A DNA stretch of 52,385 nucleotides from Candidatus Bathyarchaeota archaeon (GTDB lineage: Archaea > Thermoproteota > Bathyarchaeia > Bathyarchaeales > DTEX01): the NCBI GenBank assembly GCA_018397065.1, contig JAGTRI010000008.1:1-52385 (forward strand). The letters run 5' to 3'. The notes below the pieces were generated by a model that saw nothing but the letters and a program-made list of their open reading frames with translations, was not told the origin of the DNA and did not search any database. The translations under genes and the position numbers were made by a program. Positions 15,114 to 36,334 of this stretch are shown piece after piece (positions within the stretch are counted from its first letter, which is position 1; each line of letters opens with the position of its first letter).

Positions 15114-15398
15114 ATGATTGTGAAATTGCAAGGAAAGGTTTTGAATGTAGAAAAAACGGGAGATATAATCAGAAAAGATGGTGAAAGATGGGAAAAGTGC
15201 ATATTTACTATTGAAATAACAAGATTTTCAAAACGCACTTCCGTAGAAGTTATACCTGAAAAATTTAAGGGTAAAAAAATTAAAATTATTCGATATTGCT
15301 GTTTTGATTGGCATTATAGAACTAACGTGTTAACAACACTTGGTGTGAATGAAACTGATATTGTTTTAAAGGATAAAGTGAACGGCATAGTCTATTAA
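15114..15398 (+). CDS. Small hypothetical protein upstream of corrinoid protein
   Basis: 94 aa, unrecognised. It is basic and beta-rich (MIVKLQGKVLNVEKTGDI, then RYCCFDWHYRTNVLTTLG), with two adjacent cysteines followed by FDWHY in a conserved-looking motif. The pattern of alternating hydrophobic and charged residues suggests a small beta-barrel, possibly OB-like, but this is a guess from composition. It lies 22 bases before the corrinoid-protein start on the same strand, so the two are probably cotranscribed, and it may be an accessory to corrinoid or methyl transfer. GAGG at about 15097 is a weak ribosome-binding candidate. Confidence 0.65.
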   Translation: MIVKLQGKVLNVEKTGDIIRKDGERWEKCIFTIEITRFSKRTSVEVIPEKFKGKKIKIIRYCCFDWHYRTNVLTTLGVNETDIVLKDKVNGIVY

Positions 15399-15420
15399 TA
15401 AACTAAAAAACGTGATAAAC

Positions 15421-16083
15421 ATGTTAAGTGAACATGAAATTCTAACTAATCTCAAAGACTCTATCGTAAATTTTGATATAGAAGGCATAAAAAAGGCAGC
15501 GGAAAAGGCTTTTCAGATAGGAATACCTGCTTATAAAGCAATAATTGACGGCATGGCGAAGGGCATGGAAATTGTTGGTCAAAAATACGAGAAGGGTGAG
15601 TACTTTCTCGCTGAACTCATTATGGCAAGTGAAACTATGAAGGAGGGCATGAACGTTCTTGAACCGCATATGAGAGCAGGCGATATTAAATCAACGGGGA
15701 AAGTCATAATCGGAACAGTTAAAGGTGACTTGCATGACATAGGAAAAAATGTTGTTGCAACACTTTTGAAGGCAGCAAACTTCGAAGTAATCGACCTTGG
15801 AGTAGATGTTTCAGCGGAAAAATTTATCGAGGCAATAAAACAAAATCAACCGGATATTGTTGCAATGTCAGCCCTTCTTACAATAACAATGATTGAAATG
15901 GAAAATACGGTTAAAGCACTTCAAAAAGCTAGGCTAAGGCAAAAAGTCAAAATAATAATTGGAGGTGCTCCAATAACGCCTGATTTTGCAAAGAAAATAG
16001 GTGCAGACGCAGCTGCAAAAGATGCTGTTGAAGGCGTTCGAATCTGCAACCAATTGATGAAAGAGAAGAGAATATTAATTTAG
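15421..16083 (+). CDS. Methyltransferase corrinoid (cobalamin-binding) protein, MtbC/MttC type
   Basis: Corrinoid shuttle protein that carries a methyl group between a substrate-specific methyltransferase and an acceptor methyltransferase. The N-terminal helical cap (residues about 1-90, ending near EGMNVLEPHM) is followed by a Rossmann B12 domain. That domain holds the cobalt-ligating DxHxxG motif GDLHDIGKNVV and the later SALLTITM and IIGGAPIT segments. At 220 aa it is the standard size for MtmC/MtbC/MttC-like proteins. ATG 15421 is preceded by GTGAT with 4-base spacing. It stops at TAG (16081-16083), with TAA one codon later, so readthrough would change it little. No dedicated mtmB, mtbB or mttB gene is visible. 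The URO-D-like proteins further on are candidate partners. Confidence 0.92.
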   Translation: MLSEHEILTNLKDSIVNFDIEGIKKAAEKAFQIGIPAYKAIIDGMAKGMEIVGQKYEKGEYFLAELIMASETMKEGMNVLEPHMRAGDIKSTGKVIIGTVKGDLHDIGKNVVATLLKAANFEVIDLGVDVSAEKFIEAIKQNQPDIVAMSALLTITMIEMENTVKALQKARLRQKVKIIIGGAPITPDFAKKIGADAAAKDAVEGVRICNQLMKEKRILI

Positions 16084-16117
16084 AATTAAGATACAAAAAT
16101 TAAAGAAGTGATATTAT

Positions 16118-16933
16118 ATGTTGGCATCTATCAAAGGCACATACACAATTGAGAAACATTTTATTGGAGAAAATAAAGTTCCAACATTATGGTTTTATCA
16201 CAAAACAAAGAAAGCAAAACCTGTAATAATATTGCTCCATGGATGGACTGGAACAAAGGAAGGAATGCTGGTAAATTGTTTAAGAATTGCAGATAAAGGT
16301 TTTTATTCAATTTCAGTTGATGCCCGAATGCATGGAGATCGTTTAGATCCAGAATTTTGGGGGAAATTCGCTGAAAATTTTCCTCGAACATTCTTCACAA
16401 TAGTTGTTGAGACCGCTAAAGACATTAAACATATTATAGATTTTCTGGAAACAAGAGACGACATAGACTCCACCAGAATAGGAATAATGGGTGTCTCGAT
16501 GGGAGGTTTTATCACCTTAGTGGCTACTTTCTTAGAAAAAAGAATAAAAGCTTCAGCATCCGTAATTGGAACAGCAAATTTTCCGCTTTTTGTTGAGAGA
16601 ATGTTGTCTTTAAAGGTTTTACCTTTCAAGGAAAAACCAATGTGCGAGCCTGATGAAGAAACAAGAAAGTTATATCGAGATTTCGACCCACTAAATAATC
16701 TTGAAAAGTTTCCTCCAACTGCCTTACTACTTACTGGCGGTTTACTAGATATGTTCATTCCCAAAGAGGGCATTCAAGGGTTATACGATGCTTTGAAACC
16801 TTATTATCAAAACTATACAAACCGGTTAAAATTAAAATTCTTCAACGTTGGACATGAATACCCCCCAGAAATGGAAGCAGAAGTTATTAAGTGGTTTAGA
16901 AACCATCTACATAAAATGAAAGTTAAAAGTTAA
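16118..16933 (+). CDS. Alpha/beta hydrolase (esterase/peptidase-like)
   Basis: Serine hydrolase of the dienelactone hydrolase/prolyl-oligopeptidase-like group. It shows an oxyanion HGWTGTKEGM loop, the nucleophile elbow GVSMGGF, an acidic residue in LTGGLLDMFIP and the catalytic His in VGHEYPPEM near the C-terminus. 271 aa, no signal peptide, cytoplasmic. It lies 34 bases after the corrinoid gene with an AAGTGAT ribosome-binding site, so it is likely in the same operon. The substrate is unknown. Within this island it may deacylate or demethylesterify an imported compound. Confidence 0.85.
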   Translation: MLASIKGTYTIEKHFIGENKVPTLWFYHKTKKAKPVIILLHGWTGTKEGMLVNCLRIADKGFYSISVDARMHGDRLDPEFWGKFAENFPRTFFTIVVETAKDIKHIIDFLETRDDIDSTRIGIMGVSMGGFITLVATFLEKRIKASASVIGTANFPLFVERMLSLKVLPFKEKPMCEPDEETRKLYRDFDPLNNLEKFPPTALLLTGGLLDMFIPKEGIQGLYDALKPYYQNYTNRLKLKFFNVGHEYPPEMEAEVIKWFRNHLHKMKVKS

Positions 16934-17030
16934 TTGAGATTCATATTACCATGAAAATCCTTCAAAATCAGATAAATATAAAAATATATAGTGGTGAGTT
17001 GATCGACATCAAGTCTCAAGGGCTTATTAA

Positions 17031-17047
17031 AAATAAATTAATTTTTC
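17031..17047 (+). promoter_or_regulatory. Weak dyad upstream of the Lrp-fusion regulator
   Basis: AAATAAATT directly followed by AATTTTTC resembles the two stronger dyads at 24800 and 24857, but without the central base and with a poorer right arm. It lies about 100 bases before the regulator start and could be an autoregulatory site. The region is very AT-rich, so chance is a real alternative. Confidence 0.3.
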
Positions 17048-17142
17048 AATAAATTAATACATATTGTAAAATTATTATGTTTTGTTACGAAATTCTTAAT
17101 AGTGAGACTGAAAAAATAAAACCAAAAAGCATCGTGATTAAT

Positions 17143-18459
17143 ATGGATGAAATTGATAAAAGAATTCTTTCTTTTTTATTTAAAGATGGTAGAATCTCTC
17201 TTATTGATATATCAAATAATCTTCTAAGATATGGAATAAAAATTTCTACACCTTCAATAAAAAGAAGAATCTCTCAATTAGTAGAATCGGGAATCATTAG
17301 AAAATTCGGTATTATTTTAAACTATGATCAATTAGATCTAGCAAGTCTAGCATTCATAAATTTAAAAGTGGAGCCATCTGTTATTTTACGAGTAGCAAAA
17401 AATATATCGCTTTTACCTGAAGTTCAAGATGTCTACATTGTTCAAGATGATTATAATCTTCTCGTAAATGTTCGATGCAAAGACTATAAAGAGGTTAGTG
17501 CACTAATTGAGCGTTTTTCATCGTCACGATATGTAAAAGATGTTAAAACATGCGTTGTTCTCGACTCTTATTCTAAATCGAATCTAGCCTCTCAAATCTT
17601 GAAAGAAGCTGACATTTTGACTGTAGATATCGATAGAGATGGAAAAGAGGAAATTATACTTGACAATCCAATTCTTTCTACAATCATAAAACCGCATTTA
17701 GGAGGAAGAGTTTCTGAAATTATCTTCAAAGAAACGGGAAACAACCAAGTAAAAACTGATAATGGTTTTCTACTCGATAATTTTGCAGAGGAAGGCTGGG
17801 GTAGCTTAGCCAATTTATCATATGAATATGAAGTTCTCGAGGCTAATAAAAAATTAGTAACAGTAAAATTATCCAGACTTTTTAATGGATCAAAACTTAA
17901 AAACATTTTACTTGAGAAAAAAATCACATCATACTCAAATAATTCAATGCTACGTATTGATTATAAGATCCTAAATAAATCTGAAACGGATCAAAAAGTT
18001 ACGTTCTGGATATCTAACTATGTGGCTGTTGGAGGAGACATTGATGAAGAAGATTGTTTCTTTTTGCCAATTGAAGGAAAAATGGAGTCTGAAATGTATA
18101 AACGCCAAAGTTATCACGTTATGTGGCCAGTGGAAAATCCAGAAGTCTTAGGAGAGGAGGCTAGTCATTACATTAAAATTGAACAACCCGAAATTCGAGA
18201 ACAGAAGATAAGTGATGGCTGGGCAGCATGGATGGACACTCGTTCAGAAGAAATTGTAAGTTTCTTCTGGAACAAAAAAGAAGTTGTATACATAAAAAGG
18301 TGTTTTCTGTTAAATTCCTATTCTTTCGAAATAATATTCAAGACAATTGAGTTAAAACCAAATCAATCGAAGGATTACTCTTTTTTCGTAATGATCGCAA
18401 AAGGAGGCCAAGACCTCGTCTGGCAACAAAATGAAAAATTAAGCAAAGAGTTCAAATAA
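17143..18459 (+). CDS. Lrp/AsnC-type regulator fused to a mutarotase-like domain
   Basis: Probable sugar-responsive transcription factor. Residues 1-60 form a winged helix of Lrp type (MDEIDKRILSFLFKDGRISL, then STPSIKRRISQLVESGIIRKFG). Residues about 60-150 look like an Lrp/RAM ligand or dimer domain. From about 160 to the end (438 aa) there is a large all-beta domain with LDNPILSTIIKPHLGGRVSE and later MLRIDYKILNKSE and WAAWMDTRSEE, which resembles galactose mutarotase-like sugar-binding folds. Ordinary Lrp proteins are about 150 aa, so this is a fusion. ATG 17143 has GTGAT 4 bases upstream, like the corrinoid gene; the open frame extends 22 codons upstream without support. Its tail converges on a permease gene (stops 33 bases apart). 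Confidence 0.75.
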   Translation: MDEIDKRILSFLFKDGRISLIDISNNLLRYGIKISTPSIKRRISQLVESGIIRKFGIILNYDQLDLASLAFINLKVEPSVILRVAKNISLLPEVQDVYIVQDDYNLLVNVRCKDYKEVSALIERFSSSRYVKDVKTCVVLDSYSKSNLASQILKEADILTVDIDRDGKEEIILDNPILSTIIKPHLGGRVSEIIFKETGNNQVKTDNGFLLDNFAEEGWGSLANLSYEYEVLEANKKLVTVKLSRLFNGSKLKNILLEKKITSYSNNSMLRIDYKILNKSETDQKVTFWISNYVAVGGDIDEEDCFFLPIEGKMESEMYKRQSYHVMWPVENPEVLGEEASHYIKIEQPEIREQKISDGWAAWMDTRSEEIVSFFWNKKEVVYIKRCFLLNSYSFEIIFKTIELKPNQSKDYSFFVMIAKGGQDLVWQQNEKLSKEFK

Positions 18460-18492
18460 GATATACTTTCCATACTTTAAGTAACATTTTCG

Positions 18493-20352
18493 TTAATATG
18501 GCATTGCCCAGCGAGCTTCAAAAATCATTGCTAAAGCTGCGCTTAAGCCAACAATTAGACTTTCACCTGCAAACAAACCAGCAACAAAAGTCATTTTTTC
18601 TTCTTGGTATCGATCTTTAAGTACGTATTTTTTAATAAACTCTCCTAGGATCAAACCAACTAGGAATCCAAAAGGATTTGAAATGGGTGAAGCTGCGCCC
18701 GCAGCAAATCCTATGACTGAAAATGGTATTTTCATAAACATTGTAATAAACTGCAAAGCTGTCCCGAAAATAAAAAAGATTATGATGTAAAACGGGTTGA
18801 ATGTAGCTATAGATCTTGTAACGAAAAGAGAAGTCATCAATACCTGGGAAGGCCAATAAGGAGATGGATATATTTCTGAAGGGACTTGGGCAATTTTCCA
18901 AAAAACATATACAAAAAAATATCCGCCAATTATTGCAAAAGGCAATGCTAATAGGGATGTTTTCACCAAGCTCTTAGGACTTGTTCCCACTAGTTCAGCT
19001 GTTTTAAATGTTGCACACCAACCAGCACCACCAGAGCCACTTGCATTAATTGGCGCAAACCAGATTGCATATCTTGTATATCCGCTAGCAATTATTATTC
19101 CTTCCCTAACGTATGGTATATCCATACTAACTCCTGTTAGTCCGAGAGACCGTGAAACGATTAGGTTATTAATGAAATACCATCCAACTGACATCATAAG
19201 AAAAATCCATAGTGGAAAATCAGGAACCAGAATCCAAGACAATATTGCTGATCCAATCGATCCTGCGGAAAAAAGTATTACGATAAGTTTTAAAGAAATA
19301 ACTTCTTGAGATTCTTTTAGAGAAGCTTTCCTGAGACTTTTAAATATGTCAATGAAAAATTTTGGCTGAAAAAGAATAGGCAGAAGACCTGCTGAAAGTG
19401 CCAATCCAACAAGCGGGCTAGCCCAAAAATTTAGAATAGATCTTGTCCAAGTATCCTGTAAACTCATACCAACTTTCCAATCGGTAAATAATCCAAAATT
19501 AACTAAAATTGGATTACCTATAAAATAAAATGCAACGCTTCCTACAAGCATACTGAAGATTACACCCTTCGGAAGCATCATGCCAATTGCTATAATAATT
19601 AAGTCAGTAGCTATCCCAAGAGAAGCACCTGGAAGAATTCTTTCAATAGTTGAATTCAAATCGATCCAAGGTAATGGAATGAAAGATGCAGGAACCTTAA
19701 ATGCAGATTTTGAGACCATTGGAATTGCGTATAGAAAAACTCCATATATGAAACCCACAAGCCCAGATAACAAGAAGACTTTCTCTTTTCTAGTCTTTAC
19801 TTCGCTTAACGATATACATAACTCAGCATTCACTTGCGACATAGGAAACGGCAGTCTTTCACCCTCAACAAATAATTGACGAGTTAAAAAACCCAGAGAA
19901 ATATCCGTTAATATAGAAAAAACTGTTGAAACTAGCATAATTGCGACAATTGGAAGCAAGTTAGGATCTAAAAGATCTCTGTGATAATAAACTTGCACGG
20001 GCGGTGCAAACCATGAAGGCAATGCGTCTGTAAGTTTAAAGCTTGCTGTTATTTCTGAAGCCTTAAAATAGCATCTGAACAATAAGTTTATTGCAAAGCC
20101 TCCACTAGTAGCTGTACCACACCCAACCATTAATGTAAGAATTTCATTCTTTGTTAGTGGTTTGTCAAGTAATTTTGCAATCAACTCTAACATCATTACT
20201 GTTGCGAATTGTGCTGCCCAACCAAGAGGGCTTCCAGTAACTAAGAAAAGCCAAATTGCAGCAGGTTGAAGAACTATGCCAGAGTAGATTATTCCCAAAA
20301 TTACTCTAGTTGTCAATCCAGTTTCATTTTTCTTATCTTTCGTCATCATCAT
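18493..20352 (-). CDS. OPT-like multi-spanning membrane transporter
   Basis: 619 aa with about 14-16 hydrophobic segments, no signal peptide and a short charged N-terminus (MMMTKDKKNETG). Segments such as GERLPFPMSQVNAEL and SPLVGLALSAGLLP resemble the oligopeptide-transporter (OPT/YSL) superfamily and related archaeal DUF6784/DUF6785 permeases. OPT proteins take up peptides, metal chelates or other small organic solutes with protons. The substrate here is not known. It overlaps the end of the M28-FtsX gene by 20 bases on the same strand, so the two are one operon. Three consecutive ATG codons leave the start uncertain by two residues. A second OPT-like protein is encoded divergently at 24882. 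Confidence 0.75.
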   Translation of the reverse strand: MMMTKDKKNETGLTTRVILGIIYSGIVLQPAAIWLFLVTGSPLGWAAQFATVMMLELIAKLLDKPLTKNEILTLMVGCGTATSGGFAINLLFRCYFKASEITASFKLTDALPSWFAPPVQVYYHRDLLDPNLLPIVAIMLVSTVFSILTDISLGFLTRQLFVEGERLPFPMSQVNAELCISLSEVKTRKEKVFLLSGLVGFIYGVFLYAIPMVSKSAFKVPASFIPLPWIDLNSTIERILPGASLGIATDLIIIAIGMMLPKGVIFSMLVGSVAFYFIGNPILVNFGLFTDWKVGMSLQDTWTRSILNFWASPLVGLALSAGLLPILFQPKFFIDIFKSLRKASLKESQEVISLKLIVILFSAGSIGSAILSWILVPDFPLWIFLMMSVGWYFINNLIVSRSLGLTGVSMDIPYVREGIIIASGYTRYAIWFAPINASGSGGAGWCATFKTAELVGTSPKSLVKTSLLALPFAIIGGYFFVYVFWKIAQVPSEIYPSPYWPSQVLMTSLFVTRSIATFNPFYIIIFFIFGTALQFITMFMKIPFSVIGFAAGAASPISNPFGFLVGLILGEFIKKYVLKDRYQEEKMTFVAGLFAGESLIVGLSAALAMIFEARWAMPY

Positions 20353-23300
20353 AATCTACCTTTATTGTGTTCAGCTCATTTTGTCGACTTTGATAATTTT
20401 TCTTTTCACTATCCGAAAGAGATTGCCAATTAAGCAATTGTCTTCTTAATTCGTTCACGAATGAGCGGTTTGCGGTCTTCCAAACAGAAAGAATTCCATC
20501 CAAACGTTCAATGAAAATGTTTGTATGATATTTTTTTTCAGATTTATTAAAAACCAGTCTAAGACTTACTCTCTGTCTGATACCAGCTTCATAGGGAGAC
20601 AGTCTTGCAATAAATGTTATAGATTTCTCTTCATCTTTCTCACTGTAACTAATATCACTTGTAGAAAATAAAGAGACTCTTTCGGTTGGAAATGATTCAA
20701 GAAATTCTTTCATATAACATAATAATCCTTCCTTGACACTTTCTTCAACCACAAAAGGCAGAGGGATTAACCATTCGTTGCCTTTGGGTTTTGTAGGCAT
20801 CTTCCACTTTCTTTCAAGAGATGGCGTAACCATCTTTGACGCCTTATAAAAGGGGTAAGCCACGGACGTTAGAATCGCTAACATTGTTAGTTCCACAGAG
20901 TTAATTACCATTGAAGAAGAATAGTTTGGAACAAGACCTGCTTCTATTCCTAACACTCTGGTGATTTGTATGCCTAGAATGCCAATAGTATAACCTAAAA
21001 CAGAACTTAAAACACTGTAAAGTACGGCTTGAGAAAGAAACATCCCGACGATATGTAATGGCGATAAACCAATTGAACTGTATATACCAATCTCCTTGGT
21101 TCGTTCATGGACCATGCCTAACATTAGGTTAAAGATCGAAAAAAACACCATTATGAAAGGCACTATCAGAGACTCTGTTCCTATTAAAAATTGTTTGGAT
21201 TGTTGTAACAAACATATTTTTCCATCAATGCCAGAATAAACATTAATTTTAGCAAATTTTGTTGAAAGAATCTGAAATACATTTGTAATAACGGTAGAAT
21301 CTTGAAATTGCGTTGCTAAAGTATAAGTATGTGCCCCGAATTGAATTGCAAATTCATATGGAATTATTATTATGAATCTTGATTCTAAGTGGCCACCAAC
21401 TCCTCCAATTCCACCAACTCCAGTTCCTCCACCACCTGGAGTCGGGATTATTGAGTTTTGATCTAAATCAACTATTTCGTCAATCTCGCTTTCATTAAAA
21501 ATTCCACAAACTGTTATTTGAATATTGGATAATCTTATCTGGTCACCAATTGAAATATTTAAAACGTTTGCAGCTTCACTTGGAATAATACATTTATATC
21601 TATCAGATGAAGTAAACCAGCCTCCATATATTGCTCTTTGTATTTTAACGGGTTCATCAAACTTTAATCCCAAAATGCCGTGAATTGTATAATTCTTTCC
21701 TAGGGATCCGTATAGGATTTTACTGCCGCCGATAAATGTCCTTGGAACTAATGTTCCATTAAACTTGCGCACTATTTCATTGATTATCGATATAGCTTCA
21801 TTACTAAGGGGTGCATAGTTTCGGTCTCTTATTAGCAAACCGTTGTATTCTGTTTTTCCAACATATTCGCCAATCACCTGTCTTGAGATTTCTGGAAATG
21901 ACGAGAGAGATACAAGTGCAAAAGTAATTAATGTTAGTGAAATTATTGCTAACGCCGTTCTCATTTTTCTTCTACGCATATTTGAAATACCCATGGAAAA
22001 TGCAAGTATCATAGCGCTTGCTTTACTGATTTCGGTAAAATGTTTTCCTAAAAATTTTACACGAAATTCTTTCGCATAACCCCAAGATTTCCAAAATAGG
22101 ATTACCAAGGCTGGAAGGATTAGGCAGGCTATCGTGAACCCCATTAGAACTAATGAGGAGTTTGGTGAAACTTTAAAGCCAGGGTGACTTAAGCTTAAAA
22201 TAAGCAGAAATATAATAATGATGGCCCCCACAGCCATACTTCTTTTTAGAGTGTTGCGGTATTCGAATAAAAGTCTCTCTAATAAAATGGAAAACGGAAT
22301 TAACATAATCGTGAAAAAAACAATGGTGTTCGAGGAATCTTGGATAAGTGTTCTTACATCTCCATATATTGAGAATTCGTAAGCCCATACAGCGAAGGCA
22401 TTAGCATAGCTTGCGTCGTAGTTTTTTGCATTTTTTGCTCTAGTAATTTCGAGAAAATTAAGTTGATTTTGTATTTGTTGAGTTTCATTTAATGAAAGGG
22501 TAATGCCAAAAGATGAAGTTATTCTTATACGTTCTTCGTTAAGTAAGTGCATATCATTGGCGATCTGAATTGGAGTAAGATGAAGGCATTCACCAGTTTT
22601 TACTCTGAATCCCGAACCAAAAGGATTCATTTTTGTTGCATTTATTAGCCATCCCGTTGGATAGACCCTTACTGCAGAATGAATTATAATTTCGGAGGCG
22701 CTTTCAGAAGGTACAAAAATCATTGTCACTGGTGAAGCTATGTGTGTATAGATTCTCGATACATACCCGAAATGGTCAAAGGCAAAATGCGTTGTGAAAT
22801 CATTAACTTCAAAGAATAATCCTGGGAGTGGAGTAAGAGAAGATGGATAAAGGATATCATATAATGCTATTTTTCCACATTTAAAGACAATTGGATAAAT
22901 CACTTCTTTTTCTGACAAAACCAATGTTTTCTTAGGAAGAGTAGCATACTTCCCATAGTCTGGAGCGTATATCAAGGATCCATCTGATGAATTTTCCACA
23001 TACGCCTCAAAAATATAGCTAAAATCACCCAAAGGATTTACGTACACAGATCTAGGAACTACGCCATGAACAACAAATCTACCTTGGGAATCGGCTCTAA
23101 CAAAGAATTCATGTCCGTATAGGGGAAGATTATTCCCATACATGTCTTGACCGCAAACGTAAGGCTCAGCCGGGTATCCTTGAATATAAACTAACGCATG
23201 TGGTACTGGTGTAAACCAGCCAGTCGTATAATTGTATTCTATCACTTGCCCTTCTAGAGAGGCAAATCCTCCCATTCTGTCATCATACTTTGTAGGTAAC

Positions 23301-24754: not shown

Positions 24755-24799
24755 ATTTTATTGGTAGGTTGTATTTGCATATAAAAGTTTCTAAAATTA

Positions 24800-24877
24800 A
24801 AATAAAATTTAATTTTTTAAATATTTGATATAAGTAACCAAAAGTGATATATATTAAAATAAAGTTCAATTTTATTT
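24800..24877. promoter_or_regulatory. Two matching 21-base dyads in the divergent promoter
   Basis: Dyad 1 (24800-24820): AAATAAAATT, centre T, AATTTTTTAA. Dyad 2 (24857-24877): AAATAAAGTT, centre C, AATTTTATTT. Both start within ATTAAAATAAA. Centres are 57 bases apart. Dyad 2 lies between the TATA-like ATATATATTA (24847-24856) and the start of the 24882 permease. Dyad 1 lies 46 bases upstream of the M28-FtsX start. The arrangement suits one dimeric regulator controlling both transcripts; the Lrp-fusion protein encoded at 17143 is the nearest candidate. Assignment is inference. Confidence 0.55.
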
Positions 24878-24881
24878 AGGG

Positions 24882-26918: not shown

Positions 26919-26964
26919 AATGGAAACGCCGATTTGCCAAATTTGCCCCTTTTTTTATAAATTA

Positions 26965-26995
26965 ATTCAAATTTATTTATTTCATTCAAATTTAT
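26965..26995 (+). promoter_or_regulatory. Direct repeat ATTCAAATTTAT upstream of the dehydrogenase
   Basis: ATTCAAATTTAT occurs at 26965-26976 and 26984-26995, 19 bases apart, 33 bases before the first gene of the dehydrogenase/isomerase/URO-D operon. It partly resembles the right half of the dyads at 24800-24877. It may be a tandem regulatory site or the promoter; AT-rich background limits confidence. Confidence 0.35.
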
Positions 26996-27027
26996 AATTT
27001 TATCAAAATTAAAGGAAAGAGAGAATA

Positions 27028-28164
27028 TTGTTTGGAGCTGCAGTAATAGGTTGTGGACTTGTTTCAAAAGTTCACTTGGATGCTTTGAAAAGATTAGAAT
27101 CCGATGGTCACGTAAGCCTAGAATTTACTTGCGACGTGATAGAGGAGAGAGCTAAGCAATCGATGAAAAAATATGGCTTCAAGCATTATACTACGCATTA
27201 TGAAGACGTGAGTCGCTCTAAAAATGTGGATTTGGCGTTTGTGTTGTTGCCTGTTAGTTCTCACCATAAAGTTTCCATTGACCTAATGAATAGTGGAAAA
27301 AATGTATTGGTTGAAAAACCAATGGCTTTAAACACACATGAATGTCAAGAAATGATTGAATCGATGAAAAAAAATAAAATTGTTCTATACGTTGGGCATG
27401 TAAAAAGAAAAAATGAGGCTTACCGTCTTGCAAAAGTATATGTAGACAAACATATTTCACCAGTTTATTTAATTAAATCTTGCGAAAGATGGTATGGCGC
27501 TAACCATTTTCTAATGAACCTGTGGAGAGCTAATCCATCCTTAAGTGGAGGTGGTATTTGGATGGATATTGGATGTCATTATATTGACATTTTCAGATAC
27601 ATTGTTGGAGAAATGAAAAACATTTATTTGATGTGCAACATGTTCCCAGAAGACATCTTAAAACAAATCAAACGTTATGAAAAAGAGTGGCAACAAAAAG
27701 TAAAGGACTCTTACAGAAATATGGAAGAATTTGAAAGCTACATAAAAAAAATAAGGCTAGAAGGAAACTCTCTATCAAGCATCGAATTTTGTAACGGTGC
27801 GCTTGGCGGAATTGATGTTGGATGGTGCACTAAATCTCCTGAAATGTACTATGAAAGAACGGAAATTTTTGGACATGGCGGCATCATCATCATTGAGTCT
27901 CATCCGTTTTATCAACCTATCTCGCCAAGAATAAAAATTTACCTAGAAAATAATGGTGGCAAGTGGAATGAATCGTTTAATTTACCATTTGTAGTTGATG
28001 CGTTTTATCAGCAAGCAAAAGATTTTATCAAAGCAGTTGAGAACAGAGACTGTAGTTCAGCTTTTGATGGAAAAAGAGCGATAGACATAGTTCAGGCCGG
28101 ATATCTGTCGTTTGCAAAAAAGCAACCTATTGAAATCGAAAACAATGGAGATGATACATTTTGA
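27028..28164 (+). CDS. Gfo/Idh/MocA-family NAD(P)-dependent oxidoreductase
   Basis: Predicted sugar or inositol dehydrogenase, cytoplasmic. The Rossmann motif GAAVIGCGLVSKVH is at the N-terminus. The family signature NVLVEKPMALN is near residue 95, and GGIWMDIGCHYIDIFRY carries the usual catalytic-side Asp/His. 378 aa, within family range. The start is TTG 27028, since the Rossmann motif begins at once and no other start fits; AAGGAAAGAGAG upstream may act as ribosome binding site. It opens a tight five-gene operon and ends with a TTGA overlap with the next gene. The pairing with an isomerase-type TIM barrel suggests successive oxidation and isomerisation of a sugar or polyol. Confidence 0.88.
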   Translation: MFGAAVIGCGLVSKVHLDALKRLESDGHVSLEFTCDVIEERAKQSMKKYGFKHYTTHYEDVSRSKNVDLAFVLLPVSSHHKVSIDLMNSGKNVLVEKPMALNTHECQEMIESMKKNKIVLYVGHVKRKNEAYRLAKVYVDKHISPVYLIKSCERWYGANHFLMNLWRANPSLSGGGIWMDIGCHYIDIFRYIVGEMKNIYLMCNMFPEDILKQIKRYEKEWQQKVKDSYRNMEEFESYIKKIRLEGNSLSSIEFCNGALGGIDVGWCTKSPEMYYERTEIFGHGGIIIIESHPFYQPISPRIKIYLENNGGKWNESFNLPFVVDAFYQQAKDFIKAVENRDCSSAFDGKRAIDIVQAGYLSFAKKQPIEIENNGDDTF

Positions 28165-28961
28165 AGGAATGCAGTTGTACAATCGGGTTTAGAGAACTTA
28201 GCTGGGAAAAAACGCTTAAAATTTTAAACAGTATCGGATTTAAATTCATTGAAGGGTCTGCAGAGATCCCGAATTGTCACCTTAATTATTTTTTTAACAA
28301 TCCTGATAAACTTTCAACCTTATTTGAATTACTAAAAAGTTACAACCTTAAAGTCGTAAGTGTTATGGGTATAAATGATTTTGCGGTATGTAAAGAAAAA
28401 ATAAAAGGTGAACTTAAAAAAGTAAATAAACAACTAGAATTTGCCTATGAAATAAATGCTGAGATTTTAAGGGTTTTCGCTTCTCACATTCCAGATTATT
28501 ACATCTGGGAAGAAATGTATACACAAGTTGTAGATTGTTTAAAATGGCTGGGAAAAAAAGCGGAAAATTTTGGCATAAAAATTGCGATGGAAAATCACGG
28601 AGGAATAACGGCGACATCCAGTCAAGTTAAAAAGATTTTGGCGCAAGTCAATAAAGAGAACGTGGGATTAAATCTCGATCCAGCTAATTTTCAAGTTTCG
28701 GGGCAAGACCCTGTTAAGGCAACAATGGAACTTTCTGATTTCATAATCCATACCCACATAAAAGATTGCATAATGACTGATAAAGGATATAGGTTTTGTG
28801 AAATTGGAGCCGGACTAATAAATTATAATAAAATACTCAAAATTCTTAAAGAAAAAGGATATTCCGGGTACCTTTCTTTGGAATATGAGGATACCTCGGA
28901 TCCTGAAAGAGGAACGCGTCAAAGCCTCTTGAATCTAAGAAAAATAATAAAAGAAATATAA
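28161..28961 (+). CDS. Sugar phosphate isomerase/epimerase-like TIM-barrel protein
   Basis: Xylose isomerase-like/AP endonuclease 2-fold protein of 266 aa. Metal-site segments are visible in order: KIAMENHGG (Glu), LNLDPANF (Asp), IIHTHIKDC (His and Asp) and LSLEYED (Glu). Members isomerise, epimerise or dehydrate keto-sugars and inosose. Start TTG 28161 overlaps the previous stop as TTGA, showing translational coupling. It acts in the cytoplasm, probably on the product of the upstream dehydrogenase. The exact reaction is not readable from the sequence. The next gene starts 16 bases later. Confidence 0.85.
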   Translation: MKECSCTIGFRELSWEKTLKILNSIGFKFIEGSAEIPNCHLNYFFNNPDKLSTLFELLKSYNLKVVSVMGINDFAVCKEKIKGELKKVNKQLEFAYEINAEILRVFASHIPDYYIWEEMYTQVVDCLKWLGKKAENFGIKIAMENHGGITATSSQVKKILAQVNKENVGLNLDPANFQVSGQDPVKATMELSDFIIHTHIKDCIMTDKGYRFCEIGAGLINYNKILKILKEKGYSGYLSLEYEDTSDPERGTRQSLLNLRKIIKEI

Positions 28962-28977
28962 TATGAGGGAAGGACAA

Positions 28978-30045
28978 ATGGATTCTAGAGACCGAGTTCT
29001 ATCTGCCATTTTTTTGGAGGAACCTGATAAAGTTCCAACGCTTGAAGTAGGAGTAAGCAATATCGTTCTTAAAAAGATCTTTCCTTCTATGTCTGAACAG
29101 AGGAAACCTGTTATTTTATCAAAGCTTGGACTAGATTCGTTAGTTATATGGCCTTTTCTTAATGACAAAAACAATAAGCAGGTAAACAACAATCAATATC
29201 TGGATGAGTTTGGAAGATTATTCACTAAGAAAATATCTTTTTCTATGTCAGACTTCTATTTGCAGGGAACTTTGAATTCTCCTGAAAGGTATGAGTCGTT
29301 TCCAAGACCTGATCCGTATGACCCTTGGAGAGTTGAATACTTCAAAAAATACGTCAAATATTCTAAGGGAAAAATTTTCCTAATTCCATGTTGCGGAAGT
29401 GTCTTTGAAGTTGCAATGGAAGCAGTAGGTTTCGTTGACTTTTTCAAGTATATGCAAAGTAACCCAAGCTTCGTAAGAAGGGTAATCAAAGACCATGCAG
29501 ATTACACCATTGCATGCGGCAATGCTTTGGTAGATGCAGGGGCTGAGGCTGTTTTAGACGCTGATGATTTCGCCTACAAGACAGGACCATTCATTTCTCC
29601 TAAGTGTTGGATGGAGTTTGTCTTTCCAGAACTGCGAAGAGTGGTTGAGAATTTTCATAAAAAAGGAATACCCGTATTGCTTCATACAGACGGAAATATA
29701 AGGCTACTTATGGATGGAATAATAAAAGCCAAGATCGACGCGGTACAACCTCTAGAGCCCACAGCCGGGATGAAACTAAGTGAAGTAAAAGAGATGTATG
29801 GTGATAAAATTTGTCCAATTGGAAACATTGATGTTGCGTATACTCTCGCAAGTGGAACCCAAAACAATGTTATCGAAGAAGTTAAAGACGCTATTAAAAA
29901 TGCGGCTTATGGGGGAGGCTACATTCTTGGTTCAGGGCACACTATACATGATTCTGTTTTGCCACAAAATTTTTTGACAATGTTGAATGCTGCGAAAAAA
30001 TATGGGAAATATCCAATTAAAATGGCTGAAATATATGAAAAATGA
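28978..30045 (+). CDS. URO-D superfamily protein (MtaA/URO-D-like)
   Basis: TIM-barrel protein of the uroporphyrinogen decarboxylase superfamily, which includes cobalamin-dependent methyltransferases such as MtaA and CmuA. The typical start MDSRDRVLSAIFLEEPDKVP supports ATG 28978, which has GGAAGG just upstream; ATG 28963 would add five residues. Other family segments are KTGPFISPKCWMEFVFPELR, PVLLHTDGN, PLEPTAGM, CPIGNIDV and GGYILGSGHTIHD. The zinc-binding His-x-Cys of true MtaA is not present; the place reads HTDGN. Haem synthesis is unlikely in this context. A methyl-transfer or other role on the imported substrate is more plausible, possibly with the corrinoid protein at 15421. 355 aa. 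Confidence 0.82.
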   Translation: MDSRDRVLSAIFLEEPDKVPTLEVGVSNIVLKKIFPSMSEQRKPVILSKLGLDSLVIWPFLNDKNNKQVNNNQYLDEFGRLFTKKISFSMSDFYLQGTLNSPERYESFPRPDPYDPWRVEYFKKYVKYSKGKIFLIPCCGSVFEVAMEAVGFVDFFKYMQSNPSFVRRVIKDHADYTIACGNALVDAGAEAVLDADDFAYKTGPFISPKCWMEFVFPELRRVVENFHKKGIPVLLHTDGNIRLLMDGIIKAKIDAVQPLEPTAGMKLSEVKEMYGDKICPIGNIDVAYTLASGTQNNVIEEVKDAIKNAAYGGGYILGSGHTIHDSVLPQNFLTMLNAAKKYGKYPIKMAEIYEK

Positions 30046-31057
30046 TTTTATGTTCGGAATATACTGCGACAATACCGACATCCAAAGAAAAAGTGCAATA
30101 AAACAGATGCACGAAGCAGGAATTGAGTGGATCAGAACGCAAATTCCGGGATTTCCATTTAGGAAACCGGAAAAACTCGAATTTACCGATAGTTTTCTTG
30201 CCTTTACAAAAATGATTAAAAATCTTCGAACAAACGGATTCAAAATTCTTCTAATTACATTTTTTCCCTCTCAAATTCCAGAATCATTTGGCACTTATGG
30301 TTCAAGAAAATATTATCAAAACTGTGAAAACGTATGTCGATTTCTCGCTCAATATTTTGAAAGGGATGTTCAGTACTGGAAAATAGCGAATGAGATGAAT
30401 CTGGAGATGTTTAGAAAGCCTTTGACAATTGATGAGGCTATTCGTTTTCTAAAAGTTTGTGGAAGAGGAATTAAAAAAGGGAATCCGTCTGCCAAGGTTT
30501 GTGTGAACATGGCTGACTTCGATGAAACCGCATTATATATGTATAAAAAGGTTTACTGTGGCAAAAAAGTGATTTTCGATTATGTAGGAGCAAATGGATA
30601 TTTTGGAAGCTGGCATCCTGGCGGACCACACAGTTGGGCTACAGTGTTAGAAGAGTTGTATAAACTTACAAAAAAACCGATTGTCATACAGGAATGGGGA
30701 TACTCTTCTAAAGGTGATTTCACGACAGAGGAAGAAAGGTCAACCGGCGTCTATCCGTGCAAACTCAAGAAATGGTGGTACAAATGGAAAGATGGACACT
30801 CTGAAAAAGAACAAGCAAAATACATAGTCGAAGCAATGAACGTCTTCTTATCTAAACACTACGTTATTGGTGCTTTCTATTTTATGTGGAGCGACCGTGA
30901 AAGATGCTGGCAATGCGGTTCACCTGATTGCCCAGTTGAGACAGGATGGGGGCTTGTTGACACAAAAGGAAACCCTAAACCGTCTTATTACGCCTATCAA
31001 AATGTTATTCAATCTTTTGAACAAACAAGTTCGAGGAGGAACTGTTTCAAAGATTAA
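30038..31057 (+). CDS. Clan GH-A glycoside hydrolase-like protein
   Basis: A (beta/alpha)8 retaining glycosidase fold. The acid/base Glu is in WKIANEMN (residue 120) and the nucleophile Glu in IVIQEWGYSS (residue 220). The 100-residue spacing and the NE and QEWG motifs are typical of clan A families such as GH5, GH39 and relatives; I cannot place the exact family. 339 aa from ATG 30038, which overlaps the upstream stop by 8 bases; the frame remains open further back into the URO-D gene. No signal peptide, so it would cleave an imported glycoside in the cytoplasm. A Cys-rich stretch (CWQCGSPDCPV) near the C-terminus is unusual and could be structural. Confidence 0.78.
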   Translation, partial: KNDFMFGIYCDNTDIQRKSAIKQMHEAGIEWIRTQIPGFPFRKPEKLEFTDSFLAFTKMIKNLRTNGFKILLITFFPSQIPESFGTYGSRKYYQNCENVCRFLAQYFERDVQYWKIANEMNLEMFRKPLTIDEAIRFLKVCGRGIKKGNPSAKVCVNMADFDETALYMYKKVYCGKKVIFDYVGANGYFGSWHPGGPHSWATVLEELYKLTKKPIVIQEWGYSSKGDFTTEEERSTGVYPCKLKKWWYKWKDGHSEKEQAKYIVEAMNVFLSKHYVIGAFYFMWSDRERCWQCGSPDCPVETGWGLVDTKGNPKPSYYAYQNVIQSFEQTSSRRNCFKD

Positions 31058-31069
31058 GGGATGTTCTGA

Positions 31070-32137
31070 ATGATAAATAAGGAAGATTGGGATGAAACCA
31101 AAAAGGCATTTAGAGATTGGTGGGAAAAAAGTTTAGATAAACCTTTGTTACAGATTTTTGCGCCAAAAAATAACTATTGGAAACAACCAGTAGACATTTG
31201 GGTTTTTCTTAGATATTATCCTAACATCAACAAGGCAATAAATGTCTTGTTATCACAATTTAATGATGTCTCTTTCTTTGGAGAATCCTATCCTAACGCT
31301 TGGATAAACCTTGGACCTGGGATACTGTCTGCTTGTCTCGGGGCAAATGTGAATTTTAACCCTAAAATTGACACAGCATGGTTTGAAGGAAATATGAACC
31401 TAGAATATCTTAGAAATGTCAATTTTGATCCAGAAAATGAATGGTGGAAATATCTTATAAAATGCACAAATACAGCATTAGAAAAATGTGACGACAATGC
31501 AGTTGTTGGCTTAACGGACCTTCTTGATCCAGTCACCGTCGCTGGGCAACTTAGAGGAAACTTTCCGACAAACATACTAAGAGACATTTTTCTTGATAGA
31601 AAAAGACTGGTTGAATCTATAGGAAGAATTCAAGAAATTTGGTTTCGATGTTTCAATGAACTTTGCAGATTCTTTGATTCTTCGGATAACGGGTTTTCCA
31701 CATGGGCAGGTCTTTGGAGCGACAAAAGATACTATGTGCTACAATGCGACACTATTGTTTATCTATCTCCAAAAATTTTCGAGGAGCTAGTTTACCCTTA
31801 CATAATTGAAGAATGCAATTTTGTTGAAAGAACTATATGGCACTTAGATGGCCCACTGGAGCTAAAACATCTGGATAAGCTACTTGAAATCCCAGAATTA
31901 GATGGAATACAATGGATTCCAGGTGCAGGCAATCCAGATGGCGGAGAAGACGTATGGGTGCCATTGTATAGGAAAGTGCAGGAAAAGGGAAAATTGCTTC
32001 AAATATTTGTTCAACCCCAAAGAGTAATGCATATACTAGGTAAAATTTCTAAAAAAGGTGTAGCGATACAAACAACATGCGAATCACTAAAAGAGGCAAA
32101 AAATCTAATGAAGCAGTTTGATGCTGAATTTGGTTAA
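31070..32137 (+). CDS. URO-D superfamily protein, 'trimethylamine corrinoid protein 2'-like
   Basis: 355 aa. The middle and C-terminal sequence (YLSPKIFEELVYPYIIEEC, IWHLDGPLELKHLDKLLEIP, GIQWIPGAGNPDG) matches the kind of protein often labelled trimethylamine corrinoid protein 2. That label is misleading: the protein has no DxHxxG cobalamin motif and belongs to the URO-D TIM-barrel superfamily. ATG 31070 lies 12 bases after the previous stop, so it closes the five-gene operon. The true function is unknown. Its recurrence next to Gfo/Idh and isomerase genes points to a role in sugar or polyol breakdown or methyl transfer. Confidence 0.78.
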   Translation: MINKEDWDETKKAFRDWWEKSLDKPLLQIFAPKNNYWKQPVDIWVFLRYYPNINKAINVLLSQFNDVSFFGESYPNAWINLGPGILSACLGANVNFNPKIDTAWFEGNMNLEYLRNVNFDPENEWWKYLIKCTNTALEKCDDNAVVGLTDLLDPVTVAGQLRGNFPTNILRDIFLDRKRLVESIGRIQEIWFRCFNELCRFFDSSDNGFSTWAGLWSDKRYYVLQCDTIVYLSPKIFEELVYPYIIEECNFVERTIWHLDGPLELKHLDKLLEIPELDGIQWIPGAGNPDGGEDVWVPLYRKVQEKGKLLQIFVQPQRVMHILGKISKKGVAIQTTCESLKEAKNLMKQFDAEFG

Positions 32138-32245
32138 GCAATTTTTGGGGTTATAGTCGTATTAGAGGATCCGCTTTATGAATGAATATGATGTTGAAGC
32201 TTATGTAATGCCTATTTCCAATAACCTAAATTTTTCTAATTTTTA

Positions 32246-33313
32246 TTAGCTAAAAGTTGGGTATTGTCCATATTTTTGGATTGCCTTAACAAGCGTAATG
32301 ATGTTTGCTACTGGTACATCTGGCGGAACACTATGTGTTGGGGATAGTATTAAGCCGCCGTTATGTCCGCATGTTTCCATTCTGGTTATGATTTCTTTTT
32401 CAACATCTCTTGATGTTCCAAAAGGTAATGTTCTTTGGATATCGATTGTCCCAAATAGGCAAAGTTCATCACCAAAATTTTCTTTAACATATTTAGGATC
32501 TATTGCAAGGGGTTGAACGGGGTTCAGTATCGTTATTCCTATTTCTATTAAATCGTTCAGAATGTCAGTTGGATTCCCATCGCAATGTAGAAAAACTGGA
32601 ATACCTTTTTTTCTTGGAATATCTACAATTTTTGCTAATCTCGGTTTGATGAATTTCCTCCAGATGCTGGGCGACATCAACATGCCTTTTTGGTCTGAGT
32701 AATCGTCTCCGATCCAGAAAATGTCAAGAGGCTTTTCAACTATAAGCTTTGTTAATTCAATATCATATGTCGTTATTTTATCTAACATTTTTTCCATGAA
32801 TGGCGGATTGATGTAAAAGTCTTTTAAACTTTGAGTAAAACCTCGAAGTGTCCAAGCTCTCTCAAAAAGTGTATATCCAAAACCCGACATTATAGCATAC
32901 ATGTCTCCGTATTTGTTTATGCAGCTATCCACTGAATCAAGTAACATAATTTCAGGATTAGGAAACTCGTAGTTTTCAAGGTCTTCGACGTTAAAGTTCA
33001 TCAATGGATGCTTGATTGGTCGCTCAGAATATCCATTAAAGTTCATGTAAGTTACGCCAAAATGGTCTTGATATGAGCCGTCTGGCAACAGTTTAGGAAA
33101 CCCTATGGGAGATCTTGGATTTGAAATTATGATGTCAAAATTGAGTTTCTTGTATAATTCTGGAAAGTCGTTATCTACCAAGTGCACTCGAACTCCAAAA
33201 TGCGCACATAATTTCTTATACAATGAAGGAGCAAAACCGAAATATGCGCACCATGGAACCCTATCTGGCTCTTCCATATTAATGGATGCTATGACTCTCT
33301 CTTTATGATTCAA
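32246..33313 (-). CDS. URO-D superfamily protein (MtaA-like), minus strand
   Basis: Third URO-D-type protein of the island, 355 aa. TTG at 33311-33313 is chosen because AAAGGAG lies 7 bases upstream and the product then begins MNHKERVIASINMEEPDRVP, the standard family start; ATG 33337 would add 8 residues and cover the ribosome binding site. Family segments are WIGDDYSDQKGMLMSPSIW, PVFLHCDGNPTDIL, PVQPLAIDPKYV, LCLFGTIDIQ and GGLILSPTHSVPPDVP. Here the motif is HCDGN, so a His and an adjacent Cys are present but not in the His-x-Cys spacing of MtaA. Transcribed convergently with the previous operon. Confidence 0.82.
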   Translation of the reverse strand: MNHKERVIASINMEEPDRVPWCAYFGFAPSLYKKLCAHFGVRVHLVDNDFPELYKKLNFDIIISNPRSPIGFPKLLPDGSYQDHFGVTYMNFNGYSERPIKHPLMNFNVEDLENYEFPNPEIMLLDSVDSCINKYGDMYAIMSGFGYTLFERAWTLRGFTQSLKDFYINPPFMEKMLDKITTYDIELTKLIVEKPLDIFWIGDDYSDQKGMLMSPSIWRKFIKPRLAKIVDIPRKKGIPVFLHCDGNPTDILNDLIEIGITILNPVQPLAIDPKYVKENFGDELCLFGTIDIQRTLPFGTSRDVEKEIITRMETCGHNGGLILSPTHSVPPDVPVANIITLVKAIQKYGQYPTFS

Positions 33314-33466
33314 TTTGAGGCTCCTTTTAAAATACATTATATTATTCGAATTCGATTTTAGGTTTTTTCATAAATTCATCATTAAAGCGGTAGCGTGTAA
33401 AAACGTCTTCCCGCTATGTATAAGTACTTTACCTGTTTAAAGACCTTTAATGAGAGGTGAAAGTTT

Positions 33467-34528
33467 TTGGCAAATACAGTTGATGCCCCGCAAATAACAG
33501 ACAACTTCATCAAAAAACTATATGAGAAGACGAAGCCTTCATTAAGTTTTCAGTCGACCGTCTCCATTGATTTCATATCATGGAAGGAAACACTAAAAGC
33601 TAAAGTCAAGGAGCTGTTGGGTGAGTTTCCTCAACCAGCCTCACTAGACCCTCAGCTTCTTTCAAGAGAAGAAACGGAACGTTATATTAGGGAAAAATGG
33701 CTAATTCAGTCCGAAGAAGATTGTTGGGTTCCATTATATCTTCTTATCCCAAATAATATTGATAAACGAAGAAGACCAGCTATACTTTGTGCTCATGGCC
33801 ACGGACCCTACGGAAAAGATTCAGTTGCGGGAGTACACTTCAATGATCCCAATAGAAAAGCAGAGATAGCGCAACACAATTATAACTACGCTGAGCAGAT
33901 GTGCGAAGCGGGTTATGTAACAGCAGCTCCTGATTGGAGAAGTTTTGGAGAAAGAATTGCATATCAGAATCCCTTTGTTGACAGAGATATCTGTAACATC
34001 CATTTTCTGCAACATCTTATTCTGGGTAGGACTCTTTTAGGCTCAAACATTTTTGATGGGATGCGCGTGGTAGACTTTCTTTTGACTAGAAGTGAGGTTG
34101 ACCCTGAAAGGATAGGTTGCATGGGGCTGTCGTTTGGAGGGACAATGAGCACTTATCTTGCGCTGCTAGATGACAGAATCAAAGCGGTTGACATAATTTG
34201 TTATGCTACAACAACCGAGCATTACGCTATTTCTAGACCTAATTTCTGCGGCTCTCAAATCGTTCCCTTTCTATACAAGTACGCTGATGTGCCTGACGTA
34301 ATCGCAGCCATCGCACCCAAGCCCCTTCTGATCGAAAGCGGCGCCTCTGACACTTGTTTCTGGATTCACTCGGCACTCAAAGCTCACCAAATAATCAAAA
34401 AAGCATACGAAGCAAGTGGACATCCTGAAAATCTCTGGATTGATGTGTTCCCCGGAGAGCATGGTTTTTCTGGGCGAATGGCATTCGATTTTTTCAACAA
34501 TTTTCTCAGGCAATCAACTCATAACTAA
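33467..34528 (+). CDS. Alpha/beta hydrolase, acetyl xylan esterase/dienelactone hydrolase-like
   Basis: 353 aa serine hydrolase with AILCAHGHGPYGKD (oxyanion loop), the nucleophile elbow CMGLSFGGTMS, an Asp in ESGASDTCFW and a His in PGEHGFSG. The long N-terminal region (about 100 residues before the core) resembles that of cytoplasmic acetyl-ester or glucuronoyl-type esterases in sugar-degradation loci. Start TTG 33467 has GAGGTGA 6 bases upstream. No signal peptide. It is divergent from the third URO-D gene with about 150 bases between them. Probable role: removing ester groups from the imported carbohydrate. Confidence 0.85.
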   Translation: MANTVDAPQITDNFIKKLYEKTKPSLSFQSTVSIDFISWKETLKAKVKELLGEFPQPASLDPQLLSREETERYIREKWLIQSEEDCWVPLYLLIPNNIDKRRRPAILCAHGHGPYGKDSVAGVHFNDPNRKAEIAQHNYNYAEQMCEAGYVTAAPDWRSFGERIAYQNPFVDRDICNIHFLQHLILGRTLLGSNIFDGMRVVDFLLTRSEVDPERIGCMGLSFGGTMSTYLALLDDRIKAVDIICYATTTEHYAISRPNFCGSQIVPFLYKYADVPDVIAAIAPKPLLIESGASDTCFWIHSALKAHQIIKKAYEASGHPENLWIDVFPGEHGFSGRMAFDFFNNFLRQSTHN

Positions 34529-34820
34529 CCAACGCTATAAAACCGGCATGTTCGCCAATCACCATAGATTTGGCATACAAAAAAGAAAAGTTGGAAATAG
34601 TCAGCTTGTCAAAACGCTGAAATTTCAAAATGCAGCCCCCACTTTATCAAACTTGCCAGAAAAGTCAAAGAACATTTTTCGCCAGAAAGATGAACATTAA
34701 TAGCATGGATTGTAGATTAACAGTGGCATCAAAAGAACAGTCAATGTCGTAAGAGAGCTTTTAGCCAGAATAGCAAAAATTGTTCTACTGCACAACTACT
34801 TCGGTGGGGTCCCATTTCAG
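34529..34820. other. Spacer between the hydrolase and tRNA-Leu
   Basis: About 290 bases. An open frame overlaps the hydrolase end (34416-34700) but reads as a shadow. No structured element seen. Confidence 0.4.
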
Positions 34821-34905
34821 TGCGGGGGGTGGGATTTGAACCCACGAACCCCTATGGGACAGGCGCCTCAGGCCTGCGCCTTTGACCTAGCTTGGCAACC
34901 CCCGC
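34821..34905 (-). tRNA. tRNA-Leu (anticodon GAG)
   Basis: Minus-strand class II tRNA, 84 nt plus discriminator A. The acceptor GCGGGGG pairs with CCCCCGC. The anticodon stem CAGGC/GCCTG frames loop CTGAGGC with anticodon GAG. The variable arm has a CCC/GGG stem, and T-stem GTGGG/CCCAC holds TTCAAAT. No intron and no encoded CCA. A TATA-like TTAAAATATAG (34932-34942, read on the minus strand) lies about 27-30 bases upstream of the 5' end. Confidence 0.95.
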
Positions 34906-36267: not shown

Positions 36268-36334
36268 ACAACCCAACACAAAGATGAAAAACAAAAAAAG
36301 TAAAACATCCTAAACCGCTGTCAAGTGATGAATA

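Follow-up and report, generated by a model that had tools for sequence, protein, structure and literature searches.

Permeases of the OPT/YSL family such as barley Yellow Stripe 1 (YS1) are lone secondary carriers as far as known, MacB and LolCDE are type VII ATP-binding cassette (ABC) systems, and corrinoid-dependent O-demethylases of the MtoABCD/Odm kind have been described from Methermicoccus and Archaeoglobus (PMC8630106, PMC8359953). Genes resembling parts of all three are found in a 52,385-nucleotide stretch of DNA from a Candidatus Bathyarchaeota archaeon (the window, which is contig C45, GenBank JAGTRI010000008.1, of a 1.2 Mb genome that is 72% complete), where a first-pass annotation had proposed that about 15 genes between positions 15114 and 34528 form a single undescribed pathway for import, deglycosylation, de-esterification, oxidation and possibly demethylation of a methylated sugar or glycoconjugate. 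The features are real and the count is 14; the component families that had been named were found again with Pfam/NCBIfam profiles of the window proteins or, for two genes without a Pfam match (the second permease, 18493-20352, and the third URO-D-like protein, 31070-32137), by predicted structure. The locus is not one conserved 15-gene pathway: its conserved part is a membrane cassette of two OPT-like permeases (OPT-A and OPT-B) and an M28 pseudo-peptidase fused to an FtsX permease (M). We consider it somewhat probable that this is a Bathyarchaeia region of substrate uptake and breakdown built round the cassette. The parts belong to known families, and their union as an operon conserved across domains of life appears to be undescribed; a search of the open-access literature found nothing published on DUF6785 (the family of OPT-A) or M28-FtsX permeases, and among the results listed for a link between archaeal OPT proteins and polysaccharides none was relevant.

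Conservation of the cassette

The first-pass annotation had treated the 19 kb as one unit and had named co-occurrence of the genes in relatives as the check on that proposal. Conservation of the entire 19-kb island was rejected, since no relative carries the full set among the genomes compared (21 of the home family, within a class of 257), and the 15-gene unit fails because its genes do not co-occur in relatives; in addition, the sugar-domain part of the regulator is nearly confined to this genome. In a class-wide search the URO-D-like protein matched 14 of the 257 genomes (its own included), nearly all of them in the home family. In the neighbourhoods examined around these relatives, only the URO-D-superfamily gene UROD1 and the URO-D-like gene are retained together, in G168, where they are adjacent (77% and 72% identity, respectively), and, in damaged form, in G169.

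The three cassette genes behave differently from the island as a whole. OPT-B (18493..20352, minus strand, 619 amino acids) and M (20333..24754, minus strand, 1473 amino acids) overlap by 20 bp, and OPT-A (24882..26918, plus strand) is divergent from M, with 127 bp between them. OPT-A, M and OPT-B recur together across the home family, in variable order and orientation and often in several copies per genome: among the M and OPT-B genes listed there, 21 of the 24 M genes lie within 3 kb of OPT-B, versus 0.4 expected by chance. A scan with the M alignment, in which each bacterial and archaeal species was represented by one genome, gave 80 loci, which belong to Bathyarchaeota, Thermoprotei/Thermofilaceae, Brockarchaeota, Armatimonadota, Planctomycetota, Omnitrophota, Latescibacterota, Caldisericota and others. 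Where M is full-length and has at least 3 kb on both sides (36 loci), OPT-A or OPT-B lies within 3 kb of it in 33, comprising 18 of 18 archaeal and 15 of 18 bacterial loci. A tree of M made by a quick method, with a midpoint root and long branches, separates archaea from bacteria with 99% support by the Shimodaira-Hasegawa-like approximate likelihood ratio test (SH-aLRT) on both sides. The first-pass annotation had spotted the permeases and the pseudo-peptidase/FtsX fusion but had missed that they are the conserved system. Two of the cassettes, from metagenome-assembled genomes of two phyla (L387 of Brockarchaeota DRTY-6, and L352/L270 on contig G168:C19 of Bathyarchaeota JZ-2_2), are very alike, with short M branches, as a result of either recent transfer or binning error.

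Proteins of the cassette

OPT-A is a DUF6785/DUF6784 OPT-like permease (PF20581, E = 1.2e-39; PF20580, E = 2.2e-12) that reaches the curated cut-off of DUF6785; its match to the OPT/YSL profile PF03169 (E = 0.0025) scores 17 bits versus a cut-off of 25.8, and OPT-B has no match to that profile. The profiles of OPT-A and OPT-B are related to each other (hhalign P = 100%, E = 1.8e-40). The folds of OPT-B and of the URO-D-like family were predicted because a PDB sequence search gave no match to either. The AlphaFold2 model of OPT-B (mean predicted local distance difference test score, pLDDT, 88.6) matches YS1 (7wst) with a Foldseek E of 6.2e-12 and template modelling (TM) scores of 0.68/0.70, and the two barley YS1 entries (7wst and 7wsr) are its sole strong matches in the PDB; OPT-B is predicted from this model to have an OPT fold.

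M combines an M28 domain (PF04389) with an FtsX domain (PF02687, 44.7 bits versus a cut-off of 25.5): the aminopeptidase 2ek8, the transferrin receptor and nicalin are matches of its N-terminal part, MacB/LolC permeases of its C-terminal part. In every M protein aligned, archaeal and bacterial, the M28 catalytic glutamate pair is replaced, mostly by S/A-G/A-H (SGH/SAH-type), and the zinc-ligand motif HxD is mostly YxD. Since the glutamate pair is replaced throughout the alignment, the M28 domain of M is predicted to be a peptidase that is catalytically dead but conserved.

Bacterial operon and proposed mechanism

In Armatimonadota, M and OPT-B are followed in a tight run with small gaps by a protein of about 310 amino acids without family, a PqqD-domain protein, a short FtsX protein and a LolD-type ABC ATPase; the PqqD-domain protein (L322:17484-17900 and relatives) and the Pfam-less protein are part of the operon as it occurs in Armatimonadota. 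Bathyarchaeia ATPases are 60-67% identical to the Armatimonadota one (L322:18595-19335), whereas the M proteins are only about 30% identical, a disparity that suggests, from the sequences, either transfer between the domains or unusually strong constraint. Such an ATPase gene lies directly before OPT-A and M in a single Bathyarchaeia case (L281, 6720-7424), and others lie beside short FtsX genes (L448:9124-9816, L450:8287-8979, L452:1582-2316).

In the mechanism that we propose, OPT-A and OPT-B would carry the substrate across the membrane. M would be a MacB/LolC-like type VII ABC permease whose very large extracellular portion derives from a dead M28 aminopeptidase, and this dead domain most likely serves for ligand binding or for docking on the OPT subunits. 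The ectodomain of M would be moved by ATP hydrolysis at a LolD-type ATPase, which in relatives is linked to short FtsX partners. We infer the physical complex, the ligand and the direction of transport of the cassette, and likewise that a type VII ABC motor with a pseudo-peptidase receptor ectodomain works with OPT carriers. Tentatively, and as a possibility that we would not yet call probable, the cassette may represent a transporter complex of a new class: a pair of OPT-fold carriers would be energised or gated by a LolD/FtsX mechanotransmission ABC motor with a dead-peptidase receptor. Such a class would be ancient, with members in both archaea and bacteria, and would have expanded in Bathyarchaeia and Thermofilaceae, where it would provide archaeal polysaccharide-utilisation loci with their uptake system.

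The bacterial copies, with their TPR and PqqD proteins and housekeeping neighbourhoods, would also suit a cassette concerned with envelope or secretion biology (handling of lipoproteins or glycoconjugates in the manner of MacB/Lol) rather than with nutrition, and known type VII ABC proteins move material outward from the membrane or periplasm. We consider this quite unlikely, given that OPT-fold permeases are importers where they have been characterised and that the archaeal copies have expanded within genomes, with varied catabolic neighbours.

Glycan neighbours, sugar-processing genes and substrate

In the home family the genes near the cassette encode, among others, members of glycoside hydrolase (GH) families GH30, GHL10, GH42 and GH10, a GH5-like protein, pectate lyase, oligogalacturonate lyase and alpha-L-fucosidase, and in other archaea the products encoded nearby include apiosidase (2), GH127 beta-arabinofuranosidase, GH78 rhamnosidase, GH29 fucosidase, GH130, GH2, AP_endonuc_2 (3) and Gfo/Idh (2). 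In control random regions the best 25 families were tRNA synthetases, nitroreductases and similar, without carbohydrate-active enzymes (CAZymes). In the window, OPT-A begins a plus-strand run that continues with a Gfo/Idh/MocA dehydrogenase (27028..28164; PF01408, PF02894, PF22725), a xylose-isomerase-like TIM barrel of the AP_endonuc_2 family (28161..28961; PF01261, E = 1.3e-34; IolE-like, below cut-off), UROD1 (28963..30045), a clan GH-A glycoside hydrolase resembling GH53/GH39 (29987..31057; PF07745, E = 3.2e-8, 33.4 bits versus a cut-off of 24) and the URO-D-like protein (31070..32137), with successive gaps of 109, -4, 1, -59 and 12 bp. Candidate catalytic residues of the GH-A hydrolase, Glu136 (ANE) and Glu236 (QEWG), were read by eye in the translation and stand in the expected contexts; its true start may be later, at one of the start codons at 30002, 30035 and 30050. 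The view of the locus as catabolic and carbohydrate-flavoured, with import, is supported by the recurrence of the cassette, the many plant-glycan enzymes among its archaeal neighbours and the tight co-directional run. The cargo in archaea would most likely be a plant-type (pectin- or hemicellulose-like) oligosaccharide, which at this locus may be processed by the esterases, the GH-A hydrolase, oxidation by the Gfo/Idh enzyme and the isomerase-like barrel.

Another catabolic island of this genome (G000:C44, 36000-53533, L298) again has a GH-A paralogue (36% identity), which adjoins a URO-D gene, together with a GH4 gene, a transaldolase-family gene, a thiamine pyrophosphate (TPP) enzyme gene, an M20 peptidase gene and, near the last of these, an OPT-B gene cut by the contig end. 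A second case of OPT-A with Gfo/Idh and URO-D occurs on G168:C19, which combines OPT-A, Gfo/Idh, URO-D, OPT-A, M and OPT-B, and in the home family there are 6 cases of a Gfo/Idh gene within 3 kb of a URO-D gene, versus 1.5 expected. These two loci and the co-directional, tightly spaced run from OPT-A to the URO-D-like gene argue against a chance juxtaposition of three independent units (cassette, sugar run and corrinoid gene); that explanation, with which the weak linkage statistics and the retention of the whole set in no relative would agree, strikes us as improbable. The cassette might instead import peptides, glycopeptides or metal chelates like classical OPT/YSL proteins; the dead M28 domain would then be a receptor for peptides, and the sugar genes would be incidental. 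The M20 peptidase gene close to OPT-B on G000:C44, the M28 fold of M and the match of OPT-B to YS1, an iron-phytosiderophore transporter, are consistent with such a role, which we nevertheless hold to be unlikely in view of the many glycan enzymes among the archaeal neighbours.

Several points weigh against an uptake-and-breakdown region built round the cassette. OPT proteins canonically transport peptides, glutathione and metal chelates, and the M28 fold normally binds peptide N-termini. No gene for the LolD-type ATPase is present in the window, nor did one turn up in the searched parts of the 72%-complete genome. The bacterial cassettes lie among mostly housekeeping genes, with no glycan neighbours seen, and therefore the ancestral role may not be sugar uptake. 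The CAZyme enrichment near the cassette is an impression and not a formal test, the control being the best 25 families. In the home family, linkage of M to Gfo/Idh amounts to 2 cases versus 0.6 expected, and a strong linkage of URO-D genes to the cassette was rejected, the 3 cases found versus 1.2 expected being weakly above background. We favour uptake and breakdown of plant-type oligosaccharides, and we read the cassette as a general transport machine that has been expanded in archaea and attached to plant-glycan degradation.

URO-D proteins, corrinoid protein and methyl transfer

The corrinoid (methyl-carrier) protein of the window (15412..16083, plus strand) is Mto/Mtg/Mtb-like, with PF02607 and PF02310 and matches to TIGR02370/MtgC-like below the cut-offs. 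Its gene stands on the other side of the cassette, between an open reading frame (ORF) of 94 amino acids without Pfam/NCBIfam match (15114..15398, plus strand; 13 bp upstream) and an esterase gene (34 bp away), and about 13 kb from UROD1, with further transcription units intervening. A relative of the 94-residue ORF (52% identity; L311:10477-10770) lies on contig G169:C37, which also has a corrinoid-URO-D-Gfo/Idh cluster.

One alternative to an uptake region built round the cassette is a pathway dedicated to an O-methylated sugar or glycoconjugate, in which the three URO-D proteins and the corrinoid protein would form a demethylase whose methyl groups go to tetrahydromethanopterin. The metal sites of the URO-D proteins are consistent with it. 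UROD1 (PF01208, E = 6.9e-33) aligns with MtaA (4ay7), the H-x-C of MtaA becoming H-x-D (H241-x-D243), and the HICG of MtaA corresponds to HTDG in UROD1, HCDG in UROD3 (32246..33337, minus strand; PF01208, E = 4.5e-24) and HLDG in the URO-D-like protein, which belongs to a divergent subfamily. In O-demethylases one or both cysteine ligands are replaced by carboxylates or by non-coordinating residues (PMC10418091). The AlphaFold2 model of the URO-D-like protein (plus strand; pLDDT 90.9) matches the methylcobalamin:coenzyme M methyltransferase MtaA (4ay8) with a Foldseek E of 9e-9 and a TM score of 0.62, its matches to MtaA/URO-D structures ranging from 0.62 to 0.65, and its sequence aligns with the URO-D alignment (hhalign 96.3%, E = 1.9e-9). 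A URO-D fold with histidine plus carboxylate as two putative ligands in place of His-Cys-Cys, as in Mto/Odm proteins, is found here. The clustering of such proteins with a corrinoid protein, an MtrH-type MT2 and RACo is not found: the corrinoid gene is distant, as stated above, the one RACo gene and the two MtrH genes of the genome are on other contigs, and the window has no MT2 or activator gene. The zinc-motif spacings of vanillate O-demethylases (E-x14-E-x20-H and D-x27-C-x39-C) are absent from all three URO-D proteins.

In relatives, HSDG-type URO-D genes are placed immediately after corrinoid genes, and in G170, G176 and G169 the closest relatives of UROD3 (35-37% identity) have this position. 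On G169:C62 a corrinoid-URO-D pair lies near an OPT/M cassette. The corrinoid protein of the window is 66% identical to one in a cluster of MtrH, corrinoid, RACo and two URO-D genes (G166:C184, L304), a cluster that is itself an Mto-like O-demethylase candidate in Bathyarchaeia, and 80% identical to a paralogue in the same genome beside a GH78 alpha-L-rhamnosidase (G000:C42, L301:8851-12864). At another locus (L313) a corrinoid gene has a lipoate-ligase and alcohol dehydrogenase (ADH) pair upstream. The HxDG sites, the corrinoid/URO-D clusters of relatives and the presence of RACo and MtrH in the genome make demethylation chemically reasonable. Because there are 14 URO-D genes in 1.2 Mb, closeness to a URO-D gene is cheap; together with the distance between the corrinoid gene and UROD1, the missing MT2 and activator and the lack of conservation of the gene set, this leaves a dedicated O-methyl pathway rather doubtful in our view. 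O-Demethylation, which the first-pass annotation had raised as a possibility, stands as chemically plausible from the HxDG site, the Mto-like corrinoid protein, RACo and MtrH, and is unproven, with the linkage of URO-D genes to the cassette weak. As the weakest step of the mechanism built round the cassette, the URO-D proteins may take off O-methyl groups and hand them to the corrinoid protein, RACo and MtrH being encoded elsewhere in the genome.

Other genes of the region

The esterase gene next to the corrinoid gene (16118..16933, plus strand) encodes an alpha/beta hydrolase of the S9/DLH/AXE1-like esterase type by Pfam, in which a GVSMGG nucleophile motif was read. The next gene (17077..18459, plus strand) encodes an Lrp/AsnC regulator fused to a DUF1926/mutarotase-like sugar domain (PF13412, PF01037, PF09095); its N-terminal half matches Lrp structures, and a 4-alpha-glucanotransferase (1k1w) matches residues 181-220 weakly. 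Among the 257 genomes the C-terminal sugar-domain part was found in this genome only, plus a weak match in G146, and a conserved Lrp-mutarotase fusion was rejected, relatives having the Lrp half only. UROD3 and the second esterase-type gene, an Abhydrolase_7 protein resembling carbohydrate esterases (33467..34528, plus strand; PF12715, E = 1.4e-32; GLSFGG motif), are isolated and on opposite strands. Directly left of the island is a gene for a nickel-pincer racemase of the LarA family (13107-14411; LarAH6-like, below cut-off), which could be part of sugar-acid metabolism. To the right, tRNA-Leu(GAG) is followed by glycosyltransferase GT4/MraY-like, DUF354 and nucleotide-sugar dehydrogenase genes (34820-39813), which form a separate region for glycan biosynthesis and delimit the island on the right.

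Significance and comparison with known systems

Uptake of large plant-derived molecules by Bathyarchaeia is poorly known, and a conserved multi-copy uptake system would make glycan use testable lineage by lineage. A carrier pair joined to an ABC mechanotransmission motor and a dead-peptidase receptor would unite two transport principles that are normally separate; the Armatimonadota copies are a possible route to experiments in cultivable organisms, and the locus supplies defined pairs of corrinoid and URO-D proteins for assays with O-methyl sugars.

The cassette resembles the OPT/YSL family (YS1, 7wst/7wsr) in the predicted fold of OPT-B (TM 0.68) and, more distantly, in OPT-A, with its weak PF03169 and strong DUF6785 matches, and differs from YS1-type proteins in that two divergent OPT-like subunits are encoded with an ABC permease. 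With MacB/LolCDE it shares the FtsX domain of M, which has a MacB-like segment, and, in the bacterial operon, the short FtsX protein and the LolD-type ATPase; unlike those systems, M has an ectodomain with an M28 pseudo-peptidase in the N-terminal part of about 800 residues and a conserved C-terminal domain after FtsX, and is paired with OPT permeases. M has the M28 fold by sequence (2ek8) in common with M28 aminopeptidases and their dead relatives, the transferrin receptor and nicalin, and differs from them in being fused to an FtsX permease and in having lost the catalytic glutamate pair throughout. Like MtoABCD/Odm, the locus offers URO-D-type methyltransferase candidates and a corrinoid protein, and the genome also encodes RACo and MtrH; unlike them, the components are unclustered, their setting is one of sugar genes and not of aromatics, and they are known from genes alone. 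The MtgB O-demethylase of Bathyarchaeia is a Bathyarchaeia-specific MT1 of about 300 amino acids without homology to known MT1 proteins (PMC10989822), whereas the candidates of the window have a URO-D fold, the two being compared by their descriptions. At the level of the archaeal locus, a transport pair beside degradative enzymes recalls the SusCD-type polysaccharide-utilisation loci of Bacteroidetes, by analogy only, with OPT and ABC proteins here in place of SusC and SusD.

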